This document shows, piece after piece, positions 22,969 through 53,407 of a stretch of 64,000 nt of DNA (its first letter is position 1; each line of letters opens with the position of its first letter). A model generated the notes under the pieces. The model was not told the DNA's origin, ran no database searches, and was given only the letters and a program-made list of their open reading frames with translations. Location of the stretch: NCBI GenBank assembly GCA_947561395.2, contig OX387183.1, positions 37,926,901 to 37,990,900 on the forward strand. Reading direction: 5' to 3'. A program made the position numbers and the translations under genes. This DNA is from Buxus sempervirens (taxonomy: Eukaryota > Streptophyta > Magnoliopsida > Buxales > Buxaceae).

Positions 22969-23344
22969 GTAAGAGTTGACTATTTGCTGGCGTCATTTGG
23001 TCATGCCTGTGTGTTTAGATTGAAATTTTATATTTTACTTGTGAATTGAAATTGTTAGACATCCATGGCATGATTTTTATATAGTGGCGTCAAAATCTTG
23101 ACCTGCCCATTGTTTGGGCGGGTCAAGATTTATGTTTTCAATCAGCTGTGCATGTTTGGTATTCGGTAATGGGTTTTCCATCCTGCTGATAAACAGATAG
23201 GTTCTGACCTTGGGCTCAAACCCTCCAACTTATTGGGTTGTGAAACCTGATAAACGTGTACATATATGGTATTATATTTTAAAACAACTAATAGGAGTTC
23301 CAAGTATCAGCAGTTAAAAGGATTAGTTGGGTGGTTTTGGGATT
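22969..23344. other. Start of the expanded PRP16-like intron
   Basis: Unremarkable intron sequence between the exon-10 donor and the outermost inserted transposon. A direct word GGGCGGGTCAAGATTT with an inverted CTTGACCTGCCC sits near 23095-23130, giving a small hairpin. Confidence 0.5.
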
Positions 23345-24387
23345 CATGGTTTACAAGACTGGTCGGTACCGATCTGTACCGGGATCGGATGGTCCCGGTT
23401 TGGTATTCCAGTCCGGGACCATCCCAAGTCTTGAACGGTTTAAACTCGGGCGGTCCCGAGTTGGACCGCCCGAGTTAAAAAGATATCGGGCAGTCTCGTT
23501 TAAACTTGGGCGGTCAAACTCGGGATCGCCCGAGTTGAAGAGAAAACTTGCAGGCTTAGCCTACAAAGTCAGATGACCTTGCAGGCTAAGCCTGCAGGAG
23601 TCAAATCATTCCAACCTTTCAAGTCGACTAAGTTATAATATAAAAAAAAAGAGGAGAGAGAGAGGGGGAGGGGGAGGAGACCGGCTTTCTCAGCGCCTTC
23701 TTCTCTAATGAGTTCTTGTCTTCTTCGTCTCAGGTGAGGTGAGCATGAGAGAGAGAGGGAAGGAGGACGGAGATGGACTTACTCATTACTGCCTCAAATG
23801 CGATTTTGCCAGCAAGATTTGATAACGACAATCCTTTTTATAAGTGTGGGATATGCAAGGTTTTGAATTTCGGTGCACCTGGGCGTGCCGCCCAGGGTAC
23901 CGAACGCCATTTCGTGGGCACGCCGGCAAAATGCCGTCGATTCGCCGGAAAACCGATTTTCCTGTGGTTTCCGGCGAATCGAACGAAATATCGTCGGCAC
24001 GCCACCGGTGTGCCGACGAAATTTCGACAGAAACATTTCTGTGTGCTTTTTTTTCAAAAAAAATGCTAAATTTACAACAACTCAACAAGCATAAGTTATA
24101 TACTTCAAAATTGCTCTTAAATTACCACAAGCATCAATAATATATCTCAAAAATCATGAAAACACAATGTGGCATGTAAATATAATGATCGAGCCTATCG
24201 GGGTGATGCTGTGTGCGCTGTGTTTAAACTTTAAATAAAAAATAACAAAAAGGATCCAAATTTTAAATTAAACTAAAACAACAATATATAAAGTAAAAAA
24301 CATATAATCATACCGTCAAATCAGACATGAAATGAACGACGTGGCTCAAACCTTGATCTCTCGCCAATAAAATGACAGTAGTGCTTC

Positions 24388-24663
24388 TATCCCATCCGAA
24401 ATCTATATTCTCTCTGAAATGTACGGACGTGTTGCTCATACTCCTCCTGTGTCATGTGAGCCATGATACCAACTGGAGGGAAATCATCATAATAGTAGCA
24501 TATCTCTTGCTCTGGTGGTAACGGAGGAGACGGCGCAGGTAACCGGGATGCTCGTATGGAGGGGCTATTGTTGCAGCTCCAATACCAATAGGTACAACAG
24601 GCATAAGATAATAGCCGTACGGATATGGATTCACTAGAAAGATCCCAAATGGATTAGATGTCT
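24388..24663 (-). pseudogene. hAT B transposase: C-terminal tail, part 2, with stop codon
   Basis: Beyond the Ty3/Gypsy insertion the minus strand resumes with QTSNPFGIFLVNPYPYGYY and continues Pro/Tyr-rich. It ends MAHMTQEEYEQHVRTFQREY and RFRMG before a TAG at 24388-24390. The two halves of this tail lie in different frames around 24530. The coding end is about 540 bp from the element terminus at 23854, leaving a normal 3' UTR plus TIR. Confidence 0.7.
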
Positions 24664-24668
24664 GTATG

Positions 24669-27218
24669 TGTAACGCCCCGGATCCGTGTTGTTCATTAAA
24701 GATATAACACGTCTCACGGAGGTTAGGCAAGGATCGTTAATCAATTTATGATCGCTGGATAATCATACATCTATAACCTGACAGAGTGCACATTTCCATT
24801 TATGCAAAATTGTAACATTTAAACTGAACTGAAATCATATGGTTCATCCCCAATTACTTTAATACATCTCAATTAATTCAAGTTCTCAAATTCGGAACAG
24901 ATAACCTACAAGTCTAAGGAAGGTAATAGTAGCCTTCCTCCCTATATGCCTCAGCAGGATCTACCCCAGTAATCGCCTCACCACGAGTATCTGAAAAAAT
25001 AGAACAACAACAGAGTGAGATACGAATATCTCAGCGAGTAGCACATGCATGCAGAAATAGTTGAATCACATTTTAAAACTATGCATCGACAACACTACAA
25101 TACGTTTAAACAACCAACATCAATTTCCCAAGTTCAAATCAAACAAATCACATCTCAGTTAAGTACAATAACACATCGATTGGTCAATGTCATGACTATC
25201 GTTTAGTTGATAAATTAAACATGCCAAGTAGACACTCCACACCTCCATGTACATAGTTCCGGCCTACTCAGGGTTTCGGATACTCTGAAATGACGGCCAA
25301 CTCAGGGTTTCGTCATCCAATGCAGGCCTACTCCCCGGGTTTCTGCATTGACAACCAGGCTTACTCAGGGTTTCTGGCTGCTCTACACCGGTCGTGGCAA
25401 CACACAAGGCCATGCAATTCCAACAACCAACAATAACATCACATTACTAAGCTTAAACATCTGGATCCAGGACAAGCTAGACCAAAACAGTAAACATCGT
25501 ATAATCTCAATTTCAATATCAAAACAAAACCATTCATTCCACATCATGTAAGAACTCATCACAATTCATCACCTGTCCCTCTAGACCAAGAAGTACCTCA
25601 AGTACATTCAGTATTTTCTCATTTCTGTAACACAAGTCATATGAAAGTAAAACTCAATCCATTCATACCAAAGAAAACCTTTCAATACGTATAAAGTTTC
25701 CAACAAGTGAAACCAGAAATACAAGAACTTCTCAATCAAAACAGTGTATAGAACAAGGAAAAGTAACTGGTAACTCTTACTAGTTTGGTGTCCGGCACAA
25801 TACTCATAAGTAACCTAAATTCAACTTAAAACTCATAAGATGTTCACAAATTTCTCCTCTATTAATTTCATAGGCAAAATGGTTTCCCAGGTTCCTAACC
25901 AAGTGAATAGTGAAGTGGTTTAACCCCTAAGTAATGCAAATACTCTTGGTCAAATCAGAAATTCCATTTCGGTAAGCAAAATAGGTCTGCCGCTCACCTA
26001 TTGAGGTGGGCGCGAGGTGAGCGCCGGTCGGCGGTGAAGAAAATGGGTAAAATCGACCTGCCGCTCACCCGACGCTAGGTGAGCGCGAGATGAGCGTGAG
26101 GTGGGCGCGAGATTCGCGCGAGATGAGCGCATCGTTTTCTACTTCGCGCGAGATGAGCGTGAGGTGGGCGCGAGATTCGCGCGAGATGAGCGCATCGTTT
26201 TCTACTTCGCGCGAGATGAGCGTGAGGTGGGCGCGAGCTCGGCGGTAGGTCGTTATTAACGGGGCGCCTACCTCTGAGGTGAGCGCCGGTGAACGCGAGG
26301 TGAGCGGATACCCCCTGTGGTTTTCATTTCTCTGTTATTTTGAGATCTACATTACTGGCCGGTTTGTGAAGGTCTGTAATTACTCCAATACACTCCTAAT
26401 ACTCCCAGAAGACTTCCCAACCATATTTGGAATTAATCTAAACACTTTCATTTTCAATTATAAAATTAAATCCGGAGACTCTGTTCATGTAACTTCCCGA
26501 AAACCAGAAAACCAGAAAACCAGAAAAACTCATACTATCAGTTGATATATAAACCATGCATCAGAATAATCTCGAGAGAAACAGAAAACACAAATCCCAA
26601 TTGTAAATCAGTGCTACTCACCTGAGTGTGCTTATTCCCAAATGGTAAAACCTCGGCCGATCACTTCTTCGGCCACGCACGCGAATGAAAAATCTACCGA
26701 AACTAATCTTCTCGAGCAGAGAGAAATAACCCAATGAACTTCAGCTCCGAACTCCTTCTTCCAGCACTTGTGATTTATGGTTCTTTACGAACAGAAGCCC
26801 TAGTCACCACTCCAGCCGAAATCGCGAGTTCTCCTTATGTCCAGACTTAACGAAAATGTTTCCGTAAGTATACGCGTATTTCGTTTAAAACTAAAAACCC
26901 TACTTTCCCTTATTTGCTCATTTAACACTTACCTTGCGAGATGTATACGCCGGTGGATCAACCCTTTTAACCCCTTGATCCTATGCATGCTCGCCCACTG
27001 AAGATACTACATGTTCAGCATCTATTCGCGTTAATAATCACATAACTATACTTTAATAATACCAATGATAATACTACGATTTTTTGGAAAAATGGCTATA
27101 TAACGCCTTTACATACGAGTATGGGCTAAGCCCTCAAACCACAAAATAACCTGATAAACACAGTTTATACATCAGAATAAATAAATAAATAAATACTCAC
27201 AAAATTCAGGGTCTTACA
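24669..27218 (-). repeat. 3' LTR of the Tekay-type element
   Basis: 2,550 bp. On the plus strand it starts TGTAACGCCCCGG and ends GGGTCTTACA. It contains a GC-rich minisatellite at about 26000-26300 built on GCGCGAGATGAGCG-like words, with more copies than in the partner LTR. Short open frames inside it recur identically in the other LTR and are not genes. Confidence 0.95.
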
Positions 27219-27240
27219 TCCTCCCCTCCTACAAGAAATT
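27219..27240 (-). other. Polypurine tract of the Tekay-type element
   Basis: Directly inside the 3' LTR; on the minus strand it reads TCTTGTAGGAGGGGAGGA. Its purine-rich composition and position fit the plus-strand primer. Confidence 0.8.
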
Positions 27241-27258
27241 TCGTCCTCGAAATTTACC

Positions 27259-30180
27259 TCAAGAAGGAACAAACAATTCCGGATACTTCTTCTTCATCTC
27301 TTCCTCACCTTCCCAAGTGCATTCTTCCACAGTATGATTCTGCCATAGCACTTTCACTAAGGGAACAACCTTGGTGCGAAGAATCTGCTCACGACGGTCT
27401 AGAATCTGAACTGGCCTCTCTTCGTATGTCAGATCTTCTCGGATCACTAAAGGTTCAGGATTTATCACGTGACTAGGATCCGCTATGTACTGCCGCAACA
27501 TGGATATATGGAATACATCATGGACTCCTGCTAAATGGTTTGGCAAAGCTAGCTTATAAGCTACCGGGTTAATCACCTTCACAATCTCAAACGGCCCAAT
27601 AAAGCGTGGAGACAACTTCCCTTTCTTCCCGAATCTCAGCATTCCTTTGGAAGGCGATATCTTCAAGAACACTTGGTCTCCCACTTCAAATTTCAGCTCA
27701 CGTCGTCGGGTGTCTGAATAACTTTTCTGACGACTCTGCGCAGTCAACAACCGCTGTCTAATCAATTTCACCTTTTCCATACTATCTTGTATAATCTCAG
27801 GCCCAAAGTACTGTTTCTCTCCTACCTCCACCCAACACACAGGAGATCTACAAATCCTGCCATAAATTGCTTCATAGGGTGCCATCTGTATACTAGCCTG
27901 ATAGCTATTATTGTAAGCGAATTCGGCTAAGTGTAAATACTTACTCCAATTGCCACCCCAATCCAGGACACAACATCTCAACATGTCCTCTAGAGTCTGA
28001 ATAGTTCTCTCAGACTGGCCGTCGGTCTGTGGGTGGAAACTAGTACTGAAGCTTAACTTAGTTCCCATGGCCTCCTGGAAACACTGCCAAAAATGCGAGG
28101 TAAACCGAGAATCCCTATCCGATACAATGGACACTGGAACCCCATGCAACCGGACTATCTCTCGAGTATACAGCTCTACCAATGATGCCAAAGTCTGCGT
28201 GGTCTGGTAAGGCAAAAAGTGAGCTGATTTGGTTAGTCTATCCACAATCACCCATACGCCGTTGTGATTCTTAGCTGTAGGCGGTAGCCCACTCACAAAA
28301 TCCATCGATATATGTTCCCATTTCCACTCAGGAACCGGCAAAGGTCGCATCAAACCTGGAGGTCTCCTATGCTCTACCTTTACCTGTTGACAAGTGAGGC
28401 ACTTGGCTACATACTCCGCAATGTCTTTCTTCATTCCTGACAACCAATATACTGATCTTAGGTTCTTGTACATCTTGGTGCTCCCAGGGTGAATTGCATA
28501 TTTGGACCTGTGACTCTCGTCTAGGATCAATCCCTTGACTTCAGCATTATTTGGAACACAAGTCCGCCCTTGAAATCTCACCAATCCATCCCGAACATCA
28601 AAATCTTTCGTGGCCTCATCACCCTTCTCTACTAACCCCTGGATGTGTAATAAATCGGGATCTACCAACTGACCTTCCCGAATGCTCTGAATCAACTCTG
28701 GCTCTGCTTGAACTCGTGCCATGATCAATCCATGCCCATGAGTGCTGAACTCCCCAGGCCATTCTACAACAGTATCTACAAGAGTGCACTGACTAGCCAT
28801 GAAAGCAGCTAGTGTGGCTACCTCATCTTGAGAAACAACTCTACGACTCAGTGCATCTGCTACCACATTAGCCTTGCCCGGGTGATAATGTAGTGTGAAA
28901 TCATAATCTTTTAGAAGATCCATCCATCTCCTTTGCCTCATATTCAACTCTCTCTGGGAAAATATATATCTTAAGCTCTTGTGATATGAGAATATCTCGA
29001 ATTTGGCTCCCATCAAATAGTGCCTCCACAACTTAAGTGCAAACACGATCGCTGCCAACTCTAGATCGTGCGTAGGGTAATTCTTCTCATGAGTGCGTAG
29101 CAACCTTGAAGCATAAGCTACCACATGTCTCTGCTGCATCAGAACACAGCCCAACCCTACTCGAGAAGCATCACAATAGATCGAAAATCCCTCACTCACT
29201 GATGGCACAATCAAGACTGGAGCTGAAGACAGTTTACCTTTCAACTCCTGAAAACTGTTCTCACACTTCTCACTCCATTCAAACTTCACTGCCTTTTTAG
29301 TGAGATTGGATAGAGGTGCGGCTACTCGTGAGAAATTCTCTGTGAATCTCCTGTAATATCCAGCCATCCCCAAGAAGCTCCGAATCTCTGTCACAGATGA
29401 AGGTCTAGGCCATTCTGCAACAGCCTACACTTTAGTGGGATCCACTGCTATACCATTTCCAGAAATCACGTGCCCCAAGAAACTCACCTCTCTCAACCAC
29501 AACTGACACTTGCTGAACTTGGCATACAATCTGTGCTCTCTCAATGTCTGCAATACAGTTCGGAGGTGCCTTACATGATCCTCTCTACTTCGAGAATACA
29601 CTAGGATATCATCGATGAACACAACCACAAAGCTGTCCAAGTGTGTGTGAAACACCCGATTCATCAGGTTCATGAAAACAGCTGGGGCATTAGTCAGTCC
29701 AAAAGGCATAACCCGAAACTCGTAGTGCCCATATCGAGTACGGAAAGCCGTCTTCTCTACATCCTCTGGGGCTACTCTCAACTGATGGTATCCAGATCTC
29801 AGGTCGATCTTAGAAAACCAAGACGCTCCCCTCAACTGGTCGAACAAGTCATCAATCCGAGGCAATGGATACTTATTCTTGATAGTGACTTGATTCAACT
29901 GGCGGTAATCTATACACATCCTCATCGTCCCGTCCTTCTTCTGGACAAACAGGACTGGTGCACCCCATGGTGACACACTGGGCCTAATAAAGCCCTTTGC
30001 TTCCAGTTCATCCAACTGTTTCTTCATCTCATGGTTTTCAGGTTGTGACATCCTGTATGGTGGTTTGGATACAGGTGTCGTACCAGGTAAGAGTCGTATA
30101 CTGAACTCAACCTCTCTAGGTGGCGGTAATCCCGGTAGATCGTCTGGGAATATGTCATCAAACTCTGCTACTATAGGCAC
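27259..30180 (-). pseudogene. pol region of the Tekay-type element (RT, RNase H, integrase, chromodomain-like end)
   Basis: Family signatures in order on the minus strand: reverse transcriptase ([20 protein letters not shown], then a [13 protein letters not shown] box with the YxDD-equivalent IDD); RNase H (FSIYCDASRVGLGCVLMQQ); integrase with a zinc-binding region (HPGSTKMYKNLR ... CLTCQQVKVEHRRPPG) and DDE core (HISMDFVSGLP, IVSDRDSRFTS); and a chromodomain-type C-terminus (PVQILDRREQILRTKVVPLV ... VEECTWE). This domain order and tail are typical of Tekay/Del chromoviruses, whose integrase tail targets heterochromatin. The region is mostly open, with about one break. Confidence 0.93.
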
Positions 30181-30204
30181 ACTAGAAAGACTAAGTGTCG
30201 TAGA

Positions 30205-31950
30205 CTATACCTCCTCAACCTCAATGGATGCTACTAAACTGATCCGTGTTCTCAACCCTTCACATCGGAAACAGTGCACTGGCTGGTCTGGCTGACATAC
30301 CATAATGGTACCCCTATAGCAATCTATGCTCACATGATGCCGAAAAAGCCAATCGATGCCTAAGATCACATCAAATTCCCCGAATTCCAGTTCTACCAAG
30401 TCCCCTGGCAACTCCAAAGAACTCAATCTGATCATGCAATCCCTAAATACGGTCTGTACTCTAGTGGTTTCCCCCAATGGTGTGTGTACAAGTAGCTCGG
30501 ACTCGAGTGTGGAAGGAACCAAACCAATACGGCATGCACATAAAGGAGTAATGAAAGATCTAGAAGCACCCGAATCGAATAAGCATACGGCTGATCTACC
30601 ATGAATGAAAAGAATACCTCCAACCAACTGTGGCGCCTCTGGCTCCTCCTCACGAGCCTCCTCGACATGCCCTCCCTCAGGCTCATCCTCCTGAGCTGCT
30701 ACTGCATATACTCTAGTCTGCTGGGGGCGTGGGGGTGGTGCCTGCCGTCTCTGAGGTGCCTGCTGCCTCTGCGGTAACTGCTGCCTCTGGTATCCCCCAC
30801 TGCTCTGACCCGGAAATCTCGGCGGTGCTGGAAGTGCTGGCACGGGTCTAGAGTACTGAAATCTCGAAGCCTCGGCCGGTCGGGTGTCCATAGGTGCAGT
30901 AAGGGCTGGCTTGAGTAACTGGTAAGTGTTCGGGTGGGGACAGTCAGCAACCCGATGCCCATGCTGGCCACATCTAAAACACGCGCCTGGAGGTGACACG
31001 CACGGACCTGGGATGTGAAAACGGCCGCAACTGAAACAACCTCCTGAGCCTCTCCTATCTCTCTGTCCATAGTCGAACCTCGGTCTCTTGTCCCTATCCG
31101 GGACCCTCCGTGTCTCTGTGCCGCTCGGCTGTGCTCTAACTCTGCTCTGCTCAGTCCCTGAATCTCTAATCTCTCTCTCAACTCGCAGAGCTCTCCCCAC
31201 TAAATCTGAGTATCTGGTGCACATCAGCACCGAGACCATGCGCCTGATGTCTGCCCTCAGTCCTCTCTCGAAATGCTGGGTGAGCCTCTGCTCATCATGC
31301 ACTATATGGTGAGCAAATCGAGAAAGAACCGCAAACCGAGCCTCGTACTGTGCTACGGTCAAGGATCCCTGAGAGATATCCATGAACTCTCTCTCCTTCT
31401 GCAACCTCACCTCTGCAGAAAAATACTGCTCATAAAAGACCTGCCTAAACTGGTCCCAAGTCATCTGGATCCCATCTACCGCCTGCCTCCGTAATGACTG
31501 CCACCAATGCTGTGCCCCGCCCTCTAGGGTGAAGGTAGCCAATCTCACCCTCCGGTCCTCTGGACAGTCCATCGTATCAAACATGCGCTCCACTCTAGCT
31601 ACCCAGCTCTCCGCCTCCAACGGATCTGGAACTCCATAAAATGGCGGGGCAGTCAGCTTTCTGAACTGATCAATGTCCCTCAAGGACAACTCCTCTCTCA
31701 CCCGCTGCTGATCCACCGCAGCTCCATGACCATTTCGCTGGCCATTACCATTCCCAGTCTGACTCATCCTTTCCTCCCTCTCCATCGCAAGGAGGTGGGC
31801 AAGCGAGCCAACCGCAGCCCAAATGTCCTCTACTGGGGGTGGGGCTCCCCGTGGTGGTGCAGGTGGCTGCTCCTGTGGTACATCCCTCTCTGGACAATCC
31901 ACACTCCTCGCACGTCTGCCTCTACCGGCCATGTATACCTGTAAGCACAA
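30205..31950 (-). pseudogene. gag-protease region of the Tekay-type element
   Basis: A long open region on the minus strand with a Pro/Gly-rich start and a retrotransposon gag core (ESWVARVERMFDTMDCPEDR, FRQVFYEQYFSAEVRLQKER). A CCHC zinc knuckle follows (CFRCGQHGHRVADC), then a Pro/Gln/Arg-rich linker and the aspartic protease active-site box (LFDSGASRSFIT). In chromoviruses gag and pol normally form one polyprotein. Here a break separates this part from the pol part, so the element cannot be assumed active. Confidence 0.93.
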
Positions 31951-32069
31951 AATACCACATTAGTTAAGAACTCTCATCTAATCCTCATGGTTCTATCTAA
32001 CGTACGCACAACATTTCCCCAGGGTTTTCTATGGTCATACTACCTAAACCTCAAATTTTTCCAGCTTAA

Positions 32070-32084
32070 GGCTCTGATACCATC
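32070..32084 (-). other. Primer-binding site (initiator tRNA-Met type)
   Basis: Next to the 5' LTR; the minus strand reads TGGTATCAGAGCC, the standard plant iMet primer-binding sequence. It fixes the orientation of the element and the identity of the 5' LTR. Confidence 0.92.
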
Positions 32085-32086
32085 TC

Positions 32087-34604
32087 TGTAACGCCCCGGA
32101 TCCGTGTTGTTCATTAAAGATATAACACGTCTCACGGAGGTTAGGCAAGGATCGTTAATCAATTTATGATCGCTGGATAATCATACATCTATAACCTGAC
32201 AGAGTGCACATTTCCATTTATGCAAAATTGTAACATTTAAACTGAACTGAAATCATATGGTTCATCCCCAATTACTTTAATACATCTCAATTAATTCAAG
32301 TTCTCAAATTCGGAACAGATAACCTACAAGTCTAAGGAAGGTAATAGTAGCCTTCCTCCCTATATGCCTCAGCAGGATCTACCCCAGTAATCGCCTCACC
32401 ACGAGTATCTGAAAAAATAGAACAACAACAGAGTGAGATACGAATATCTCAGCGAGTAGCACATGCATGCAGAAATAGTTGAATCACATTTTAAAACTAT
32501 GCATCGACAACACTACAATACGTTTAAACAACCAACATCAATTTCCCAAGTTCAAATCAAACAAATCACATCTCAGTTAAGTACAATAACACATCGATTG
32601 GTCAATGTCATGACTATCGTTTAGTTGATAAATTAAACATGCCAAGTAGACACTCCACACCTCCATGTACATAGTTCCGGCCTACTCAGGGTTTCGAATA
32701 CTCTGAAATGACGGCCAACTCAGGGTTTCGTCATCCAATGCAGGCCTACTCCCCGGGTTTCTGCATTGACAACCAGGCTTACTCAGGGTTTCTGGCTGCT
32801 CTACACCGGTCGTGGCAACACACAAGGCCATGCAATTCCAACAACCAACAATAACATCACATTACTAAGCTTAAACATCTGGATCCAGGACAAGCTAGAC
32901 CAAAACAGTAAACATCGTATAATCTCAATTTCAATATCAAAACAAAACCATTCATTCCACATCATGTAAGAACTCATCACAATTCATCACCTGTCCCTCT
33001 GGACCAAGAAGTACCTCAAGTACATTCAGTATTTTCTCATTTCTGTAACACAAGTCATATGAAAGTAAAACTCAATCCATTCATACCAAAGAAAACCTTT
33101 CAATACGTATAAAGTTTCCAACAAGTGAAACCAGAAATACAAGAACTTCTCAATCAAAACAGTGTATAGAACAAGGAAAAGTAACTGGTAACTCTTACTA
33201 GTTTGGTGTCCGGCACAATACTCATAAGTAACCTAAATTCAACTTAAAACTCATAAGATGTTCACAAATTTCTCCTCTATTAATTTCATAGGCAAAATGG
33301 TTTCCCAGGTTCCTAACCAAGTGAATAGTGAAGTGGTTTAACCCCTAAGTAATGCAAATACTCTTGGTCAAATCAGAAATTCCATTTCGGTAAGCAAAAT
33401 AGGTCTGCCGCTCACCTATTGAGGTGGGCGCGAGGTGAGCGCCGGTCGGCGGTGAAGAAAATGGGTAAAATCGACCTGCCGCTCACCCGACGCTAGGTGA
33501 GCGCGAGATGAGCGTAAGGTGGGCGCGAGATTCGTGCGAGATGAGCGCATCGTTTTCTACTTCGCGCGAGATGAGCGTGAGGTGGGCGCGAGATGAGCGC
33601 ATCGTTTTCTACTTCGCGCGAGATGAGCGTGAGGTGGGCGCGAGCTCGGCGGTAGGTCGTTATTAACGGGGCGCCTACCTCTGAGGTGAGCGGATACCCC
33701 CTGTGGTTTTCATTTCTCTGTTATTTTGAGATCTACATGACTGGCCGGTTTGTGAAGGTCTGTAATTACTCCAATACACTCCTAATACTCCCAGAAGACT
33801 TCCCAACCATATTTGGAATTAATCTAAACATTTTCATTTTCAATTATAAAATTAAATCCGGAGACTCTGTTCATGTAACTTCCCGAAAACCATAAAACCA
33901 GAAAAACTCATACTATCAGTTGATATATAAACCATGCATCAGAATAATCTCGAGAGAAACAGAAAACACAAATCCCAGTTGTAAATCAGTGCTACTCACC
34001 TGAGTGTGCTTATTCCCGAATGGTAAAACCTCGGCCGATCACTTCTCCGGCCACGCACGCGAATGAAAAATCTACCGAAACTAATCTTCTCGAGCAGAGA
34101 GAAATAACCCAATGAACTTCAGCTCCGAACTCCTTCTTCCAGCACTTGCGATTTATGGTTCTTCACGAACAGAAGCCCTAGTCGCCACTCCAGCCGAAAT
34201 CGCGAGTTCTCCTTATGTCCAGACTTAACGAAAATGTTTCCGTAAGTATACGCGGATTTCGTTTAAAACTAAAAACCCTACTTTCCCTTATTTGCTCATT
34301 TAACACTTACCTTGCGAGATGTATACGCCGGTGGATCAACCCTTTTAACCCCTTGATCCTATGCATGCTCGCCCACCGAAGATACTACATGTTCAGCATC
34401 TATTCGCGTTAATAATCACATAACTATACTTTAATAATACCAATGATAATACTACGATTTTTCAGAAAAATGGCTATATAACGCCTGTACATACGAGTAT
34501 GGGCTAAGCCCTCAAACCACAAAATAACCTGATAAACACAGTTTATACATCAGAATAAATAACTAAATAAATAAATAAATACTCACAAAATTCAGGGTCT
34601 TACA
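32087..34604 (-). repeat. 5' LTR of the Tekay-type element
   Basis: 2,518 bp, near-identical to 24669-27218. By eye there are only scattered single-base differences, plus fewer units of the GC-rich minisatellite (about 33410-33700). That pattern fits a recent insertion followed by repeat slippage. Confidence 0.95.
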
Positions 34605-42617: not shown

Positions 42618-42784
42618 GTACAACACCGTTAACAAACGTGGGTACAACCCAAAATAGCATGGGGTTCAACCCTCTTAGAAACGGGTACAACCCAAGTCAG
42701 CATAGGGTACAACACGGCTAACAAACGTGGGTACAACCGAAAATAGCATAGGGTACAACCCTCTTAGCAACGGGTACAAACAAA

Positions 42785-43911
42785 GGCTGCGTTTGGTAAC
42801 GCTTTTGATTTTTTGCTTTTAAAAGCAAGAAAGAAAAAAAGCAATTTTATGCTTTTGGAAAGATCTTTTCTTGAAGCAAATGCGTTTGGTAAACTTTTTC
42901 TTTGTTTCTAAGAAGCAAAAAAGCATGTTTGGTAATTACAATAACATAGAAATTGCTTTTTGCTTTCATAAAAGTATTGTACACAATTTATGTATTGTAC
43001 TTAGAAATATACTCAAAAATATAAGTCCAATATTATAAAAGATTCATAAAATAGTCATTTAATTACATTCAAATAATCGGGTTGGGGTTAATCGGGTCAT
43101 AATCGGGTTGGACTAAATTAAGGCGGGTTGGAAAACCCCCAACCCGCCAACCCGTTTATTATTATTTTTATTTTTTATTTTTCAAAAAATATTATTAAAA
43201 TAGGGTTGGGGGGTTAATTGGATCCGGTTGTACCGGGTTCGGGTCGGGGTTTTGGGGTTAATCGGGGTAGAAACATGATACTTTTGCCATCTTTTTTTTT
43301 TAATCGGGTTACCTATCGGGCGGGTCATAATCGGGTTGACCCGATTACTGTTATTTTTCAAAAAATATTATTAAAATAGGGTTGTGGGGTTAATTGGATC
43401 CGGTTGTACCGGGTTTGAGTCGGGTTTTGGGGTTAATCGAGTCGAAACATGATACTTTTGCCATCTTTTTTTTTAATCGGGTTACCTGTCTGGTTGGCGG
43501 GTCATAATCGGGTTGACCCGATTACTGGCAGGTTGGGGAAACCCCAACCCAATTAATAAACGGGTCAACCCAACCCGTTTATAATCGGGTTGACCCGTTG
43601 GGTCGGGTGGCATTTTGCTGGCTCTAGCAATAACAATACATTGTTACTTCTTAAGTGAGTATGGAGGCATCATCTTTAATATAGGAATAAAGCAACAGGG
43701 TATCAAAGGGTTTTGAAAGCAATAAAGCAATTTTGTAAAAATATTGAGAATCAACGTTTTGTTGCTTCCGGTGAAAAGCAATAAAATTGCTTCTTTGCTT
43801 TTAGTAAATTGCTTCTCGTGTGCGTTACCAAACGGTACTTTTGCTTTTAAAAGCAATTTTTTGCTTTCAAAAGCAAAAAAGTACTTTCGAAAAGCGTTAC
43901 CAAACACAGCC
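42785..43911. mobile_element. TIR element inserted in the satellite array
   Basis: The left end is GGCTGCGTTTGGTAACGCTT and the reverse complement of the right end is GGCTGTGTTTGGTAACGCTT. Both are followed by GCTTTTAAAAGCAA-type palindromes (42820-42900 and 43795-43890). I find no clean target duplication: the flanks CAAA and CAAG suggest a 3-bp CAA at best. The superfamily is therefore undecided between PIF/Harbinger-like and hAT-like. No transposase. The interior (43075-43620) is a CGGGTT-rich block with a tandem duplication of about 170 bp, probably a second insertion with hAT-like subterminal repeats. Confidence 0.75.
43075..43620. repeat. AATCGGGTTG-rich block with ~170-bp tandem duplication
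   Basis: The text GTTAATTGGATCCGGTTGTA ... GAAACATGATACTTTTGCCA ... GGGTCATAATCGGGTTGACC occurs twice (about 43210-43345 and 43388-43520). Dense CGGGTT/AACCCG words in both orientations resemble hAT subterminal arrays. The right edge CGGGTGGCATTTTGCTGGCT could be a terminus; its left partner is not found. Confidence 0.6.
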
Positions 43912-46084
43912 CAAGTCAGCATTAGGGTACAACATCCCTAACACAGGTGGGCACAACCCAAAATAGCATAGGGTACAATCCTCTTAGCAACGGGTACAAC
44001 CCAAGTCAGCATAGGGTACAACACCGCTAACAAACGTGGGTACAACCCAAAATAGCATGGGGTTCAATCCTCTTAGCAACGGGTACAACCCAAGTCAGCA
44101 TAGGATACAACACCCTTAACACACATGGGTACAACCCAAAATAGCATGGGATTCAACCCTCTTAGCAACGGGTACAACCCAAGTCAGCATTAGGGTACAA
44201 CATCTCTAACACAGGTGGGTACAACCCAAAAGAGCATGGGGTACAACCCTCTTAGCAACGGGTACAACCCAAGTCAGCATAGGGTACAACACCGCTAACA
44301 AACGTGGGTACAACCCAAAATAGCATGGGGTTCAATCCTCTTAGCAACGGGTACAACCCAAGTCAGCATAGGATACAACACCCTTAACACACATGGGTAC
44401 AACCCAAAATAGCATGGGATTCAACCCTCTTAGCAACGGGTACAACCCAAGTCAGCATTAGGGTACAACATCTCTAACACAGGTGGGTACAACCCAAAAG
44501 AGCATGGGGTACAACCCTCTTAGCAACGGGTACAACCCAAGTCAGCATAGGGTACAACACTGCTAACAAACGTGGGTACAACCAAAAATATCATGGGGTT
44601 CAACCCTCTTAGCAATGGGTACAACCCAAGTCAGCATAGGGTACAACACAGCTAACAGATGTGGGTACAACCCAAAATAGCATGGGGTACAACCCTCTTA
44701 GCAATGGGTACAACCCAAGTCAGCATTAGGGTACAACACGGCTAATACACATGGGTACAACCCTCTTAGCAACGGGTACAACCCAAGTCAGCATAGGGTA
44801 CAACACCCCTAACACACATGGGTACAACCCAAAATAGCATAGGATACAACCCTCTTAGCAACGGGTACAACCCAAGTCAGCATAGGGTACAACACCGCTA
44901 ACACATGGTTTAGAGGGTTGTACCCTATGTTGACTTTGGTTGTACCCATTGCTAAGAGGGTTGTACCCCATGCTACATTGGGTTGTACCCACGTCTGTTA
45001 GCGGTGTTGTACCCTATGTTGACTTGGGTTGTACCCGTTGCTAAGAGGGTTGTACCCATGCTATATTGGATTATACCCACGTCTGTTAGCGGTGTTGTAC
45101 CCTATGTTGACTTGGGTTGTACCCGTAGCTAAGAGGGTTGTACCCCATGCTACATTGGGTTGTACCCACATCTGTTAGCTGTGTTGTACCCTATGCTGAC
45201 TTGGGTTGTACCCGTTGCTAAGAGGGTTGTACCCCATGCTATTTTGGGTTGTACCGACGTTTGTTAGCCGTGTTGTACCCTAATGCTGACTTGGGTTGTA
45301 ACCGTTGCTAAGAGGGTTGTACCCCATGCTATTTTGGGTTGTACCCACGTTTGTTATCCGTGTTGTACCCATATTGTCTCCCTTCATTCCTTTCCTATAT
45401 TGTAAAACCTTTCCATCTTATTGAATAACCAATTGGTACCAGCAACCTAGAATCCCTTCTATAAGTAATGAAATTCATTTATATCAAAAGGAAGGAGCAC
45501 CCACAAGGAGTCGACATTCCAAAAAATTGAAAAACCTATGAAACAAAACAAGATCCATTGAGAACCAAAAATTAGATATTTCTCTGCAATATGTCATTTC
45601 TTTCTAACATTCAACTCCTAAATGTCATCTCTTATCAACAATCACATTCATACAAACTCACCTACCACTACAGAGCCGCCTAATATCCACAAACCGATCA
45701 TAGTTTCCTCTCTCCCTTGAACAACAAAGGTCATATACAGGACCACAAAGTAGAAGATGAGAAGTAACAAAAAAACAACACCGACATAATCCTCAAAACT
45801 ATTTGACAGTCAACCTCTAAGCATACCCGAGGCATCAATTCTCGACATTCCCATCATTGAACTTTAACCCATTTGCGGTACCTAGAACTCCAAAAACACT
45901 GCAGTACAATGACCTGTTAAAACAAGTTTACATAAACAGTTAAGATTGACTTATTAAAAAACCAGCCTATGATTAGATTTGTATAGAATGCCACTTACCA
46001 TGTTGATACCAGCACGGATCTGCCAAGCTTGAACAAATATGAATTGTTTGCATGAGGTAGTGAGGTAATCCGGTCAATTCCTCC

Positions 46085-47545
46085 CCATTCTGAAGTCACA
46101 CAACCTTGAGAAGGTCATCCAATAAAGCTACAATTAGTAATAGAAGCTCTCAATTTAAATAATTGTCTTATATCCTTATCTTGTACCTTCATTTCTCCCG
46201 ATCAATAAGAGAACCAATTGATTCGGTGACTCCACTATCAGACTGAACAATGAGGTCTGAAATGAGCTTATCGCAAAAGTACTTCATATTATCCTACAAA
46301 AAGTAGTGTATGAATTTAAGCTAAAGAATGTTTGGCAAGACAAATAAAACTAAGTGAACATCAACTATGCTCAATGATGTTTAAATAAAAAACAGAATTA
46401 ATTATCTGAATTCAATAACAGATTATTTAGCACATGCCTTTCGCAATCATTCCAAACACACCCATTGTTTTGGATTTTCCCAAATCAATCTTCTATTTGT
46501 TACTTTCCTTTGGCTCTCTCTTTCTCCTGCTTTCTAAGGTTGAGCAGACCAAGTTGGAAAAGAAAAGATTTATATGTAATATATTACATTAATACTAACT
46601 GAAGTATGTTCTAAATTTGAGTAGTTTGTTTGAAGTGTTTGTAGATAAGGATTATTACTTGTTAATAATAGAAAAAAGAAAATTTCATGAATTTTTTTTT
46701 GCTTGATATCATCTATATATTATCTGTTTGGAAGGTTAGTTTGTTACTTGGGTTAAGTATTTTACTCAAGTTTTGATTTCAATAAAATAAAAAATTCAAA
46801 AAAAAGAGAAAATTTTTAGGGGTATGTCTGCACTTAAAGAGTATAAGTGCCCCTCCTGTTATTGTGCATTGAATCAAGAAACTATTTCTGGAAATATTAT
46901 TCTAAACTGAGATTATGGATATTTAAATACATACAGACAGTAATTTCCCAAAACTGATACTGTGCGGTTTTCAATGCACAGGCTATCCTCATACTAATCT
47001 AGCACATGGATTTTCTACACAAAAACCATGGAATTGGTTCTTTTTCAAGCGTAAGCAAACCCCCAATAATTCTTCCATCTAGATATAAAAAATAATGAGA
47101 TGGTACATGGGATTCCAAGGAAGATTCAAGATAATGCTCCTTACCCACCATAACCATAAAAATTTGTCACTGTTTCCTCAATCTTGCCTTTGATTGCTTG
47201 AACCCATCTAAATGAAAAACAAATAGTGAACTATATCTTACCACAATTTACTTCTTTAAATGTGTTGATTGGTCAATTTGAATCTCAACTTTTGTTCTAT
47301 GAAAATGACTAAAAGACAAGACAATTTAGCTATAATGAAAGAAAGGCCTTGCTCTTTTTATATGCTTTGTGGGTATTATGGTATTTCTATCTTGTGAGAC
47401 ATTTGTTTGTAGACAACCATGCTTTTCTGCGCATTCTTATTCTTTATAGGCATTATGGTATTATGTGCCCAATTTTGGGCCAATGCACCTCAGAAAGGGA
47501 CCCTCTGGTCAACCATGAGGACAATGCTTCAACCCACGTAAGCAC
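46085..47545 (-). pseudogene. Exon-like fragments of an unrecognised gene, minus strand, in the MULE
   Basis: Read on the minus strand, four pieces have splice-like borders. About 47445-47545: VEALSSWLTRGSLSEVHWPK. About 47150-47215: WVQAIKGKIEETVTNFYGYG, with a GTAAGG donor. About 46195-46295: DNMKYFCDKLISDLIVQSDS then GVTESIGSLIDRE. About 45998-46130: QNGEELTGLPHYLMQTIHIC, with a GTAAGT donor and one in-frame stop. The third piece follows a TTTTTGTAG acceptor. Composition and edges suggest one captured multi-exon gene, opposite in direction to the SNF4 fragment. I cannot name the family. Confidence 0.4.
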
Positions 47546-48453
47546 CATTAATTCAAATGTACCAGATTTATCACACCTAATAAAATAGATGTTTAAATAT
47601 AGAGAAAGCCTCTTTGCTTTATAATTATCTGAGCCTGAAACTTTTACGTGGAGCCAAATGGAAGTACATGAAGATAAGTAGAATTCACCAACTAAAATGC
47701 ACATATGAAGTTCATGTGTCACTAAACTTGGGAGAACCAGTGCCTCTCTCTCTCTAGTTATCTGGTCATCTTCTCTATATGCATTATCTATTTCTAAGAG
47801 TTTGAATAAATAGTAACACATTACACATGTAAACTATAAAACGAAATGATGGTTGTTCAAGTCAATTTTCAATAACTCCCAGAGAGAATTCAAATGAAGG
47901 GATGTCAATAAACTGAATTTGTCTTCTCTTATTATGTTGTTAATGACCAGGAAATGGAGATGTTTCTAGCTTCATATTCTAAATGTCTTCATTCCAAAAG
48001 CCCAATTTCGTTTAAAAATTTCAACAAACACATGATATGCAAGCTGTTTCAACAATACAAGATCAGAAAGCAAGCTGTTTACCCATCTCATTTATTGAAT
48101 AGAAAATTTTATTTTAATATCAATAATTATCAGAAAGCAAGTTGATGGCTCTCTAGTTTCTTTCTATGCTAACAAATTTCTAAAGATTTTGTAAAGATGT
48201 GTTCCACTAAGTGCCCACTTAGAAGAAAACTCATATAGAAAAACCATTTTCGACCACATATATATATATAGATAGCGCTCTTGTAGTACTCACTATTCAA
48301 TGCCCACTGATGAAAGCAAGTTTAAAAGTACACATTTTCTTGAACAATGTTCACATGTGAGCTGATTTAAAGGGAATATATATAGATATATATATATAAC
48401 ATATGATAAAATAAAAAGGAGAAGAGAGTTTTATTTTATTAAAAAATGAGGGG

Positions 48454-48490
<37 letters not shown>

Positions 48491-48954
48491 TCACGGCAAA
48501 CCTGTGGATAATAATACAGAAGATGATGGCTAGGGTTCTTTGTAAAAGAGCTGGTTCCACCAATCCCCTTGAGGAATGGTCACTTTCTAGAAGAGCAACA
48601 ATGCCACCTCACTCTCGCCCTTCTGTTTTAGTTTCGATTCCTTCTATTTTTCTCTCCATCTAGCAATGGAGGAATACGCAGTTGATAATCCAACAAAATT
48701 ACTAGATGCAGCTTTGTAAAAGAGTTGATTCCACCAATCCCTTTGAGGGATGGATGAGCCAAGATAAATATGGGGATAGATGAGCCGAGATAAATATGGC
48801 TTTTGACGAATGGTATGCACCCACGAAACACTCAAGAGTAGGAGGAGAACACCCTTTTCTTTGGATTCTCCGGCATGAGGAACAGAGAATTTTTTATTTT
48901 CGTTAGATTTGGGATTTGGTTGGGCGGGAGCGGGAATATACGTTTTTGGTGAAG
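47546..48954. other. Right interior of the MULE, no gene assigned
   Basis: AT-rich. It has a (GA)n tract (48455-48484) and a degenerate local duplication around TTTGTAAAAGAGCTGGTTCCAC (48540) and TTTGTAAAAGAGTTGATTCC (48714), each followed by ACCAATCCC and TTGAGG. The subterminal region from about 48955 contains inverted CGGAGATGTCTCCG-type palindromes belonging to the TIR. Confidence 0.5.
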
Positions 48955-49114
48955 ATGGGTGTAACGGAGATGTCTCCGTTAATTGGTCCCGTGTCTGTTA
49001 ACGGAGAGTCTCCGTTTTTTTTAAGTGCTGGAGCGGGATGCGTGGCGAAAATCGGCAGGCGCTCCAGCCGATCTTCCAGCATCCCGCTCCAGCTGATATG
49101 GGGTCATCTCTAAC

Positions 49115-51509
49115 TGCTTCGTCCTCAGCCTCATGTTATAATGGCAGAAGACCAACTTCTGTAACCTCTGATAAGCTAGCCGGTTCCTCTGCTTCGTGTG
49201 TATGAGTGCGAACGTACTCCAATTGCGCTCACAAGCAGAAGAGGATGCTGTCTGAGCCAATATTCGACATGCTAACTTCCTCAATGTAGGGGCACTTGTG
49301 CCATGCATCGCCCACCATTCACCTGGATTTACAAATAGAAAATATTAAAAATTATTTAGAAATTAGAAATTTAAAATATTAATATTCATAATCCCTTATC
49401 AGTTGTCACTTACACGGCATCATTTTGTTCCTCGATGCAATCGCCGTAGTCAACCCGAATGAGCCCATCGCATCTCTAAATTGTATCAGCTGGTAGTGGA
49501 ATAATTTGAAAGGGTCAATACTTAATAATTAATATAACTATTAAGAAGTGATATCCATAACATAAGTGAAGTTAAATGCTACGGCCCCTACCTCGTTTCA
49601 AAAATCCCCAACTAATTGTGAATGGGGGTCCAACTTCATGAAAACCTCATGGACACGAGCGCAGAGGTCGTGGTGTGCGCCAACATTATCCTTATAATGA
49701 TATTTTGGATTCAAATAATATGCTACATTGAAGAATACAAGAAAAAACATTAGTACAATAATTAAAATATAATTATAAACATGATTCAACATAAAATGAT
49801 TCAAATAAAATTGTAATTATACCTGCTGCATGCAAAGGATGACCTAACGACTTGTACCATCTGTCGTTAACAATCTTCAGTACCCACTGATGTGATTTGG
49901 GTGATTCGGCCTTAATCTGAGCTTTCATCACCGCCATACACTTATATATGGATCCTACCGTAGGATAGGAATCTGTGTCAAGTAGCCGCAGTATACGGTA
50001 TATGGGGTGCAGTATAGCAATCAACTCTCGTACATGCTCCCAAAAAGTACTGGACAAAACAATGCCCTCTACTCTCCTCCCTGTCTCTTTGCGACTCTGA
50101 GCACAACTCGTCCAATCGTCACTGGTAAATAGAGATCTCAATCCCTGCTTGTGGCTCAGAATACTATCCAATGCAATACAGTTCTTACCAAATCTGGTAA
50201 TCCCCGGCCGAACTATGTCCCCACCACATCTCCCTCTCATCTTCGCTAGTACGAAATTATGGTTATACACAAATGTGGTGAGTGCTCGTGCATCCCTCAA
50301 TGTCGTCAGCACGTGGCTTTTCTTGCCAATCTCCTTTAGCATCAAGTCAGTGCAATGTGCAGTACAGGGTGCCCAATACAGGTTATACCGCTCCTATAAT
50401 GTCTCGCCTGCTTTCTTGAACGCACTGGCACTGTCTATCACAATCTGAACGACGTTCTCAGGGCCAACCTCCTGTACCACGCTCTCTAATAAGTTGGTAA
50501 TATAGGGCGCATCCTTGATATTGTGTGATACGTCAACAAATCTCAAGAACACTGCCCTGCCTCTACAATACACCATAAAATTGATGATGGACAGTTTAGT
50601 AGGACCTGTCCATCCATCATACATGATTGTAACTCCAAACTATTCCCAGTAGGGTCATAGCGATGTAACAAACTCTCTCATCTCTGTTTCCTCTTGATCC
50701 AAGTACGTGCCCATAATCTCTCGTGGCGTAGGAGGCAAAACTCCCTGACCCGACTCCTGGATAACATCAACCATGTTCTTGAAATGGGGGCTCCCTGCTG
50801 CATTTGCTGGAATGTGATTGAAGATAAAAAAATTTGGATATAAACTTCCCATTTTCTCCCTGACAGTGCCTTTGCTCCACACATCCTTCAATTTCTTCTG
50901 CTTGGCACCAGATGAACGCCACATACTTGGCTCCATAGGATAATCAGGCATCCTGGTGCTAGGTCCAGCCCCAGCCCCATGTCTAGAACTAGGAGTAGGA
51001 GCATCAACATCTGCATCTCCTCTAGAAGTACCACCCCTGTGAAATCCATGCCTCGCAGCCTCTGTCCTCTCAAACTTAGATTGCAAAGATGCTTGCACTG
51101 AGGCTCTGAATGCTGCCCTCTCTCCCTCTGTCACATACTCGGCTGGGTACACCATGTCATCATCGTCATTAATATCAAGAGCCACAAAGGGTCGGATATG
51201 CTCTGCCAATCTACGTCTAACCTCCTCCCGTGCATGCCTCTTCCCCTCCCTAGCTGCACTCCCTGATGCCAAGTGCTCTCTCATCAGCCTCTGAACCTCT
51301 GGAGGGACTTGATGACAGTTGGCCACGTTACTGTAGCCGTGTGCCAAATGCTGCTTCAACCGTGATACTCCACCACCCTTTATGACTTGGCGGCAATAGT
51401 TGCAGACCGTCTTATTTCTGTCTCCCTCGTATCTCGTGCAATGGGCCCAACCAATATCCTGCCTCCTACTACCATCTCTGCCTTCTCCACTACCACTGCC
51501 AGATGCCAT
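49115..51509 (-). pseudogene. hAT B transposase: N-terminal and catalytic part
   Basis: From the ATG at 51509 the minus strand encodes a Ser/Gly-rich start, a BED zinc finger (CNYC ... LKQHLAHGYSN, about residues 25-65) and an acidic/basic linker. A DUF659-type block follows (YDGWTGPTKLSIINFMVYCR, 50394-50624), then a long central segment (49824-50345, ending GHPLHAA). Small exons follow at 49598-49724 (YYLNPKYHYKDN) and about 49404-49500. The hAT dimerisation region (LRKLACRILAQTASSSACER, NWSTFALIHTKQRNRLAY) runs up to the Mutator-like insertion at 49114. At least two Gln-to-TAG type stops (near 50650 and 50396) and one more in the 49.6-kb exon make it non-functional. Otherwise long frames are kept, so decay is recent compared with the copy at 1-3551. 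Confidence 0.9.
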
Positions 51510-51659
51510 ACTGTCTATCTGTTTGACTGTCTCTAACAGACTAAGTGACTAACCAAGAAGCACTACACTGGAATCCGAACACCTGCACAAACGCACAGTA
51601 AGTCAGTAACAGTGCACAATAATAACAAATTATAAATATTAATCCACATTAGACAATAC

Positions 51660-52180
51660 TAACATTACCAACTAATTATAATTTCTTATTTATAATTTAT
51701 AAACTATATTATTATTTATGAATTTTATGAATAATTTGGGATTAATTAATTTGAAAAATCATAATTATATAAAAAAATTATAAAAACTCTGATTCTTCAA
51801 AATAAATTGTTCTATAATAAACAAATTATCTTTAGGAATTTAATTTGAGTACTTATATTTTTTATTAATTTTATGACTAATTAACTAATTTTCGGATTAA
51901 TTAATTCCAACAAATCAAAAATATATAAAAAAATTATATAAACTCCAATTATTTAACATAAATCATTCTACAATAAATAAATCAATTTTATGAATTTAAT
52001 TTGAGTATTTATCTTTTTTTACTAATTTTATTAATAATTAATTAATTTTCGGATTAATTAATTCCAAAAAATAAAAAATACATAAAAAATTATATAAACT
52101 CAAATTTCTTAACATAAATAATTCTACAATAAATAAATCAATTTTATGAATTAAATTTGGCAACTTATCTATTTTTCTTC
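51660..52180. repeat. AT-rich tandem repeat in the leader of hAT B, about 3 copies
   Basis: Units of roughly 130-160 bp carry ATTCTACAATAAATAAATCA, AATTTTATGAATTTAATTTG, a T-rich run, and TTAATTTTCGGATTAATTAA. They lie between the transposase ATG (51509) and the element terminus, the same place as the unrelated-looking array of the copy at 1-3551. Confidence 0.75.
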
Positions 52181-52234
52181 ATTTTATAAATAATATATCA
52201 ATTTTCGGATTTAAAAATTAAAAAAAAAATAATC

Positions 52235-52425
52235 CGGGGGCACCCATTTGTAGATCGGATGTCCCCATATAACATATATAATTATCAAAGTCAACAACAT
52301 TATTTATCTAATTTAAATGAATTAAAAAAAAACTTATATGCATTTTCGGTGCAAATAATTGCAAAAAATATATTTTTTGTGCAAAAAATAAAACGCCGAC
52401 ACCCATTTGTAGATCGGGTGTCGCA
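52235..52425. promoter_or_regulatory. Repeated hairpin motif in the 5' leader of hAT B
   Basis: GCACCCATTTGTAGATCGG (52239-52257) and ACACCCATTTGTAGATCGGG (52400-52419) are near-identical. In the second copy GACACCC and GGGTGTC form a perfect 7-bp stem around the ATTTGTAGATC loop. The copy at 1-3551 has ACACCCATCGATAGATCAGG at 3053-3072. Conservation between decayed copies while flanks differ suggests a functional site, such as transposase binding, promoter or RNA structure. Confidence 0.5.
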
Positions 52426-53041
52426 CTTTAACATAAAATGAAATCAAGACATTCCACAAGCTTTAGATCAAAAAAATTTGAAAAAAACGACCTTACCCAA
52501 GGTGTGCGATGAACGTAGCTTTAATCTCCTCCAAATCAACAAAACCTTGGCTCAAAGCACTTTAATCTTGTTATATGATGAAAAACGAGCCTAAATCCAA
52601 GCAAAAATCATGCCAAAAATCCCCCCCAAGCACTAGTTCGTCACCCCCCTGTTTTTTTTTTTTGCAGGTCGATTAAGTGCCGCGCGCACGTGTGCGAATC
52701 GCACACGTGCGCACGTTTCATTTTAAAATTAAATGCCGACTGAAGCCGAGCAAAATTTTGCTCGGCATTTCGATACAAATCGGGGGCACGACCCCAGCGA
52801 TTTCTCCCGACGAAACGCATCGCCGGGGGTCTCCTGACCGAAATTTAAAACCTTGGGGATATGTAAGGATTTGGAAGAAAGATAAAGATAAAAAATCAAA
52901 GGACGTTGAAAAGGATTGGAACGCCTTTTATTTTTGGATTGGTTGGGACCGCCCGGTCCCACCGGTCCGGTCCAGTTTGTACCGGGACCAGCCCAAACTG
53001 GTCCGGTCTCCGGTCCTGGTACAAACAACCATGTTGGGATT

Positions 53042-53407
53042 AGTTCCCTTTAAATAGGTTGGATTCAGGTTGATCATCTCCAACTTGTTTAATAAATGGA
53101 GAGTTGGAGCTTCGATGAATCCCATTGATTACATACATAGACAAGCCTGTACATAGTCGTACTCAATTGATTGCCATATTTTCAAATAAAATTCTTAAAT
53201 TTTACTACCTGAATCTCTAGAAGATTTGTTGGGATATTAATCTGTTCCCCTAAAACACACACAGAATCATCACAAGAATTTTTTCATCTCCAAGCCTACT
53301 TTTCATGTGGATTTATTAGTTATTTGTAGTTAGTGCTTACATGAACTTTTAGTTGTAATATTTTTCCGGGAGTACTTTGCTGAATTCTTGTGGCTTGTTT
53401 AATGCAG
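53042..53407. other. End of the expanded PRP16-like intron
   Basis: Native intron sequence right of the outermost insertion, ending in a TTTAATGCAG acceptor before the exon at 53408. Confidence 0.7.

Follow-up and report, generated by a model that had tools for sequence, protein, structure and literature searches.

How an intron of a splicing-helicase gene comes to span 30 kb, and whether the transposons packed into it record the order of their arrival, are the questions posed by a locus in the 64,000-nucleotide stretch of Buxus sempervirens DNA analyzed here (hereafter, the window). The answer to the former is that the intron, once about 0.74 kb long, reached 30 kb by transposons landing within transposons (Table 1). 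A preliminary description had placed them in a PRP16-like intron, and the host is indeed of this kind: the splice sites are canonical, with GT at 22969 and AG at 53407; an exon ending in IIK stops at 22968, and YMTDGVLLRETLK begins at 53408; the reading frame runs on across the splice junction (IIK followed directly by YMTDG); and exon pieces match PRP16 on either side of the intron. Stops within the frame and changes of frame suggest that this gene copy is a pseudogene. Searches with Rfam at its gathering scores and a tRNA scan returned no hits.

Table 1. Features of the intron and of the elements nested in it, in window coordinates
Feature	Coordinates	Strand	Size and composition	Termini	TSD and its positions
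Phase-0 GT..AG intron of decayed PRP16-like DEAH helicase gene	22969..53407	+	30,439 bp; native part, 742 bp		
hAT A, non-autonomous	23345..53033	.	681 bp own DNA	CATGGTT/AACCATG	8 bp, TTGGGATT; exact at 23337-23344/53034-53041
hAT B, decayed autonomous-type hAT	23856..52855	-	5,338 bp own DNA	TIR CAAGGTTTTRAATTTCGGT (18/19)	8 bp, GGGATATG; exact at 23848-23855/52856-52863
hAT B transposase pieces (BED finger, DUF659 region)	49776..51548	-	divided by in-frame stops		
Ty3/Gypsy LTR retrotransposon, probably chromovirus	24669..34604	-	9,936 bp		5 bp, GTATG; exact at 24664-24668/34605-34609
Gypsy LTRs	24669-27218 and 32087-34604	-	LTR pair		
Mutator-like element (MULE)	35394..49105	.	13,712 bp including load	65-bp TIR (55/65)	9 bp, ATCTCTAAC; exact at 35385-35393/49106-49114
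Solo LTR	38696..41783	.	3,088 bp	TGTAACGCCC..GGGTCTTACA	5 bp, ACGAA; exact at 38691-38695/41784-41788
Array of 89-bp units rich in GGGTACAACCC	42618..45370	.	foldback-like; interrupted by inner element		
Inner TIR element, inside array	42785..43911	.	1,127 bp	TIR GGCTGYGTTTGGTAACGCTTTT	3 bp, AAA/CAA

From the outside inward, hAT A encloses hAT B, which encloses both the Gypsy element and the MULE; the next layer holds the solo LTR and the inverted array, and the innermost is the inner TIR element. Termini, target site duplications (TSDs), and containment bear out this layer order as previously described. TSDs had been claimed for most layers, and the five quoted ones are exact and flush with the element termini (hAT A, hAT B, Gypsy, MULE, and solo LTR), that of the innermost element being imperfect. 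All 30,439 of the 30,439 bases of the intron are accounted for, as 742 of native intron, 29,659 of element DNA, and 38 extra TSD bases. Very probably, then, the nest was built by successive insertions into a 742-bp intron of the PRP16-like gene copy. A small non-autonomous hAT (A) would have entered this intron, a 5.3-kb hAT (B) would have entered hAT A, and the Ty3/Gypsy and Mutator-like elements would each have entered hAT B separately. The MULE also bears the solo LTR and the inverted satellite-like array with its small TIR element.

As a control, the intron was scanned for TSDs adjoining perfect TIRs, with 60 dinucleotide shuffles per setting. A 9-bp TSD with an 18-bp perfect TIR occurs once (shuffle mean, 0.0), and pairs of 9 + 7 bp occur five times (mean, 0.3). 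There are two pairs of 8 + 9 bp against a mean of 0.1, namely, hAT B and one in a tandem array, and 11 of 8 + 7 bp against a mean of 0.92 (maximum, 3). Some TSD words are not rare as bare words in the window; hence, their weight lies in their position beside inverted termini. Thus, GGGATATG occurs twice against a shuffle mean of 1.92 and TTGGGATT nine times against 4.92, and ATCTCTAAC is found four times against 0.52, a count that no shuffle reached. Besides the TSD pair of the MULE, the last 9-mer is present twice within the array; we take these copies to be due to chance, since the target of the MULE is the coding sequence of hAT B.

The identity of hAT B is drawn from its ends and its transposase. 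It has an 8-bp TSD and a short TIR starting with CA (CAAGGTTTT.., 18/19), as is typical of the hAT superfamily, and its transposase combines a BED finger (zf-BED, E = 2.3e-7) with a C-terminal dimerization domain. The DUF659 match (E = 9.7e-7) scores 29 bits, below the cut-off of 34.7. With the MULE excised, a 177-aa piece matches Dimer_Tnp_hAT (E = 3.7e-16, residues 5-71) and the Hermes transposase (E = 1.3e-6, residues 9-68). A related hAT lies at positions 1-3551 of the window; its alignment overran the right end of hAT B (52855) by 77 bp for a gain of 5 points, an overrun that counts against this border. Pattern searches for hAT relatives in viral contigs gave 18 and 2 matches, none of which was confirmed by tblastn.

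The Gypsy element has the TG..CA LTR pair, the 5-bp TSD, and the gag-protease-RT-RNase H-integrase order of the Ty3/Gypsy group; it contains two in-frame stops. The integrase core (rve) reaches 29.6 bits, below its cut-off of 32.6, and Integrase_H2C2 exceeds its own cut-off. A sub-threshold Chromo match (E = 1.4e-4, 22.2 bits; Pfam cut-off, 25.1) points no further than to a probable chromovirus, and so not as far as the Tekay type given in the preliminary description. Its LTRs differ by 18 substitutions in 2,510 sites (K2P, 0.0072) and 4 gaps, corresponding to an age of about 0.3 to 0.5 My at generally used substitution rates; it is the only datable layer.

It had been proposed that excising each element with one TSD copy restores the sequence beneath, a prediction that can be followed wherever the layer below has a signal to read, namely, at three junctions. 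At the Gypsy site, excision with one TSD copy yields an open hAT frame of 271 aa, as opposed to 202 aa with no copy, 212 aa with two, and 202 aa with the element in place; the downstream frame needed is the longest of the three (69 versus 9 and 2 codons). With the MULE taken out, the hAT frame lengthens from 107 aa to 177 aa, the needed downstream frame again being the longest (97 versus 18 and 8 codons). The right frame would be hit by chance once in three at either junction and about once in nine at both together. A duplication of 9 bp, being divisible by 3, leaves the frame at the MULE site blind to TSD copy number (174, 177, and 180 aa with zero, one, and two copies), and since the Dimer_Tnp_hAT and Hermes matches end before the junction near residue 79, the stretch joined across it is matched to no relative. 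Once the inner element is taken out together with 3 bp, the landmarks of the array lie exactly 89 bp apart, and its phase is restored. The proposal thus holds at these three sites, with one copy indistinguishable from none or two at the MULE. TSD and termini are the sole test for the placement of hAT B within hAT A, of hAT A within the intron, and of the solo LTR within the MULE.

The MULE is recognized by its 9-bp TSD and a TIR of tens of bases (55/65 over 65 bp). Among the 9 ORFs scanned, out of 26 with 70 aa or more, there was no transposase and no family match at 0.01; three of these ORFs match families at 0.019 to 0.088, none of them a transposase. Non-autonomous MULEs lack a transposase. 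The ends of the solo LTR resemble those of the LTRs of the Gypsy element. The array has the long inverted arms of tandem units of a foldback element: its 89-bp units run in direct orientation to about 44905 and are inverted from about 44910 to 45370, with arms that reach 316 nt at 90% complementarity among the 25 longest of 446 pairs. Reading the flanks at 42618/45370 by eye gave no convincing TSD, nor had the preliminary description named one, a transposase for the array was not found, and GGGTACAACCC has no occurrence among the literature matches listed. We tentatively suggest, as a rather doubtful possibility, that the array represents a separate plant foldback-type transposon family with an 89-bp satellite-like arm unit that was captured by a MULE and could spread with it. 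Between the two ends of the inner element, 45 of the 48 bases compared are identical, with 3 mismatches and 7 gap columns; the 3-bp TSD of this element has one mismatch. PIF/Harbinger elements have a 3-bp TSD, usually TWA, and a TIR starting with GG; AAA/CAA is not TWA.

The outermost element raises the question of whether it is an element at all. With an 8-bp TSD and a short TIR of 7 bp, hAT A conforms to the superfamily, and on sequence grounds we regard it as the weakest layer, resting on 8 + 7 bp; it is inconspicuous in the unrestricted scan of the intron because 9 of the 11 such pairs are neither hAT A nor hAT B. If TSD and TIR had met by chance, hAT B would have landed straight in the intron; the 0.92 pairs expected in that scan, the frequency of TTGGGATT in the window, and arms that are only weakly alike past the TIR (a score reached by 26 of 500 shuffles) would fit such a coincidence. 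However, within the flanks that enclose hAT B, an 8 + 7 bp combination arose in 3 of 2,000 shuffles (8 + 5 bp in 25 of 2,000), and the composition shifts at the border, from a GC of 0.35 in the native intron flanks to 0.49 in hAT A. We therefore set pure chance aside and keep it as a weak, improbable rival. Misjoining of repeats from different elements during assembly is more improbable still: the region is repeat-rich and was judged from assembled sequence, but exact TSDs lie on both sides of five layers, the window is without N, excision restores both the hAT frames and the array phase, and the LTRs of the Gypsy element differ and so neither is simply an assembly repeat of the other. An artifact was set aside on the exact TSDs and restored frames.

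The nested structure is also compatible with a different history, in which an inner element may have entered an outer one before the latter moved to the locus. The nest would then have been built partly elsewhere, the loaded MULE entering hAT B as one 13.7-kb unit; if it moved with the solo LTR and array aboard, nesting order would differ from arrival order. Both hATs and MULEs transpose by cut and paste, and a single TSD pair per layer suits either history equally. Against this, a non-autonomous MULE of 13.7 kb is a long one, making later insertion of its load somewhat more likely; a prior loading is thus unlikely, though not negligible, and we infer that each inner element inserted at its present locus rather than riding in. 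The relative clock that had been read from the nest does not stand as worded: the Gypsy element and the MULE are neighbors within hAT B, which leaves them unordered relative to each other; for the solo LTR, an order follows solely against its enclosing layers; and the inner elements were possibly carried in.

Taking these findings together, the locus is a nested-transposon cluster of a known type, framed here by DNA transposons. A fourth intron described from maize exceeds 12 kb and holds two nested retrotransposons; the intron measures 647 bp in sorghum and 264 bp in rice (PMC2773423). Common to both is a nest of transposons within an intron otherwise short in relatives; in contrast to the maize cases described there, DNA transposons frame this nest (hAT in hAT, MULE in hAT), it is deeper, the gene copy hosting it has decayed, and the 30-kb length compares with a maximum intron length of 18,487 bp in the table of that report. 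REANNOTATE resolved nested clusters around maize adh1 and on wheat 5Am (PMC2672092); like the clock proposed here, it takes order from containment, and it dates by LTR pairs. Its Table 1 holds mostly LTR retrotransposons, with at most three elements enclosing another; the innermost element here is enclosed by four (array, MULE, hAT B, and hAT A), or three if the array is not an element. Among maize and rice MULEs, nested insertions are reported in over a third of candidate coding-MULEs (PMC3903597). LTR retrotransposon sequence within a MULE is shared with those elements; unlike the coding-MULEs of that account, ours has no transposase in the scanned part and itself lies two layers deep. As described in PMC4079207 and PMC3573991, Galileo of Drosophila has long, internally repetitive inverted arms like those of the array, and Tetris is linked to satellite DNA, which the array resembles; unlike either, the array is from a plant, with neither TSD nor transposase found.

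The nest is real and unusually readable, yet it is a tidy case of a well-known kind of structure. As a compact case in which nesting enlarged an intron, it is accounted for in full, and its junctions are open to inspection at the level of single bases; it also warns against equating nesting order with the order of arrival. Genome-wide copies of each element could yield a local history of transposon activity, but the principle is already established.

The interval read in the preliminary description as an intron is exactly one intron, opening with GT at 22969 and closing with AG at 53407, and its splicing would join, in phase 0, an upstream exon ending in IIK to a downstream exon starting with YMTDGVLLRETLK. 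We predict the host gene copy to be a pseudogene, because its exons carry in-frame stops and frame changes (three-frame translations, judged by eye) and because QRSGRAGR of PRP16 is replaced by QHAGHAGR in the alignment to the PRP16 matches. The types of transposon in the intron suggest a plant host. A leucine-rich-repeat gene fragment precedes the PRP16-like exon piece at 21083-21352.

Features of the intron nest and of the surrounding window
Feature	Position	Strand	Repeat unit	Match
Second hAT (truncated by window start)	1-3551			Dimerisation domain, E 1.2e-9
Tandem array of second hAT	2556-3030		128 bp	
Possible third hAT	5614-6542			
Leucine-rich-repeat gene fragment	17753-18025	minus		LRR_8, E 3.9e-6 (at cut-off)
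Exon piece	21083-21352			Top match PRP16 helicase, E 6.5e-17 (best of 3 matched sequences)
Intron	22969-53407			
hAT A	23345-53033			
hAT B	23856-52855			
Gypsy element	24669-34604			
Mutator-like element (MULE)	35394-49105			
Solo LTR in MULE	38696-41783			
Inverted array in MULE	42618-45370		89 bp	
Inner TIR element	42785-43911			
Tandem array of hAT B	51735-52211		156 bp	
Exon piece	53617-53778			Top match PRP16 helicase, E 6.1e-17 (best of 59 matched sequences)
Exon piece	54210-54794			Top match PRP16 helicase, E 2.2e-69 (best of 64 matched sequences)
Copia-type pieces	60623-62747	plus		Gag, E 1.3e-9; pre-integrase, E 1.5e-15

All five target site duplication (TSD) pairs named earlier are present, exact, and flush with the element ends, and the intron is accounted for to the base: 742 native bases, 681 of hAT A, 5,338 of hAT B, 9,936 of Gypsy, 9,489 of the MULE, 3,088 of the solo LTR, 1,127 of the inner TIR element, and 38 TSD bases sum to 30,439. 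As a chance control, the intron was shuffled 60 times for each setting of TSD and TIR length. The 9-bp TSD with an 18-bp perfect TIR (the MULE) occurs once in the real sequence and in none of the shuffles, while the 9 + 7 bp setting gives 5 real pairs against a shuffle mean of 0.3, the 8 + 9 bp of hAT B 2 against 0.1, and the 8 + 7 bp of hAT A 11 against 0.92 (maximum 3). The looser settings therefore pick up nonelement pairs too; at 8 + 7 bp, 9 pairs are neither hAT A nor hAT B, and 7 of these either have one end in a Gypsy LTR or fall within tandem repeats. A fair test for hAT A is whether a pair encloses hAT B; when the two flanks were shuffled 2,000 times, an enclosing 8 + 7 bp pair arose in 3 shuffles, or in 25 if a 5-bp TIR sufficed. 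With the setting lowered to 7 + 6 bp, no pair appears in the real flanks, as expected because the TSD is read at a fixed length beside the TIR; 44 of the 2,000 shuffles have one. Beyond the TIR, the arms of hAT A are only weakly alike (score reached by 26 of 500 shuffles), but its border marks a change in GC content, 0.35 outside and 0.49 inside.

The transposase of hAT B, on the minus strand, spans both the Gypsy and MULE insertion sites, and excision of each element with one TSD copy kept had been proposed as a check. For Gypsy this holds: one copy yields a 271-amino-acid open frame across the site, against 202 with no copy, 212 with two, and 202 unexcised. For the MULE, excision lengthens the frame from 107 to 177 amino acids but is silent on the copies to keep (174, 177, or 180), because the TSD is 9 bp long. 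At both sites the required frame is the one that stays open longest downstream (97 codons versus 18 and 8 for the MULE; 69 versus 9 and 2 for Gypsy); the chance of both junctions giving the right frame is about 1 in 9. The two frames are separated by a frame change, and the 177-amino-acid one starts with a hAT dimerisation domain (E 3.7e-16) and matches Hermes transposase (E 1.3e-6), both matches stopping short of the MULE junction. Removal of the inner TIR element with 3 bp likewise brings array landmarks to exactly 89 bp apart, the length of one array unit. The placements of hAT B in hAT A, hAT A in the intron, and the solo LTR in the MULE were tested by TSD and termini only.

The Gypsy element matches gag, protease, RT, RNase H, and integrase domains and, under Pfam's cut-off, a chromodomain, in three ORF pieces split by two in-frame stops; TGGTATCAGAGCC adjoins its 5' LTR and is consistent with an initiator-tRNA-Met primer site. 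Between its two LTRs, 2,510 compared sites show 18 differences, 14 of them transitions, along with 4 gaps (K2P 0.0072), and at 1.3e-8 to 7e-9 substitutions per site and year it would be about 0.28-0.52 My old. The solo LTR shares its first 14 and last 10 bases with the Gypsy LTR, the rest being only partly similar. Copia-type pieces lie elsewhere in the window. The MULE TIRs match at 55 of 65 positions; no family match at 0.01 was found among 9 ORFs scanned of 26 listed, so the element may still hold a decayed transposase. Its array runs direct up to about 44905 and inverted from there to 45370, which is the layout of foldback elements; a TSD was sought for it and no convincing one found. The MULE TSD sequence ATCTCTAAC recurs twice within array units (44202-44210 and 44470-44478), which we take as chance. 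hAT B has a BED finger, a dimerisation domain, and a sub-cut-off DUF659 match, interrupted by stops. The second hAT is its kin (65.8% over a 2,451-column alignment), and its right end, ..AAAACATTG, probably falls at 3551, where the alignment has no sharp stop; in each of the two, a tandem array precedes the transposase. A possible third, nonautonomous hAT would lie between copies of the 8-bp repeat ATTTGAGG at 5614 and 6535, two of the 4 that occur in the whole window; its right end resembles the left end of hAT B, and its left end, starting TAGTGTTTTCAG, is a poor TIR match.

The mechanism of the nest is ordinary: it would have grown by repeated insertion, one TSD per event, into DNA already transposon and therefore under little constraint. 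The nest had been read as a relative clock, and containment does give an order, which would run from hAT A to hAT B, then Gypsy and the MULE, then the MULE's load, but Gypsy and the MULE are mutually unordered. Because cut-and-paste transposition is the mode of both hAT and MULE elements, an inner element could also have entered an outer one before the latter reached its present site. Inferring the order of insertion from nesting is established practice (PMC2672092), and parallels are described in a maize intron with nested retrotransposons (PMC2773423), MULEs with nested insertions (PMC3903597), and plant LTR elements nesting among themselves (PMC6911290). Table 1 of PMC2672092 has a maximum of three enclosing elements, whereas here up to four surround the innermost; a nest of this depth framed by DNA transposons seems less common, with depth compared to that source only. 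The nest is real and clean, a fresh example of a kind already known.
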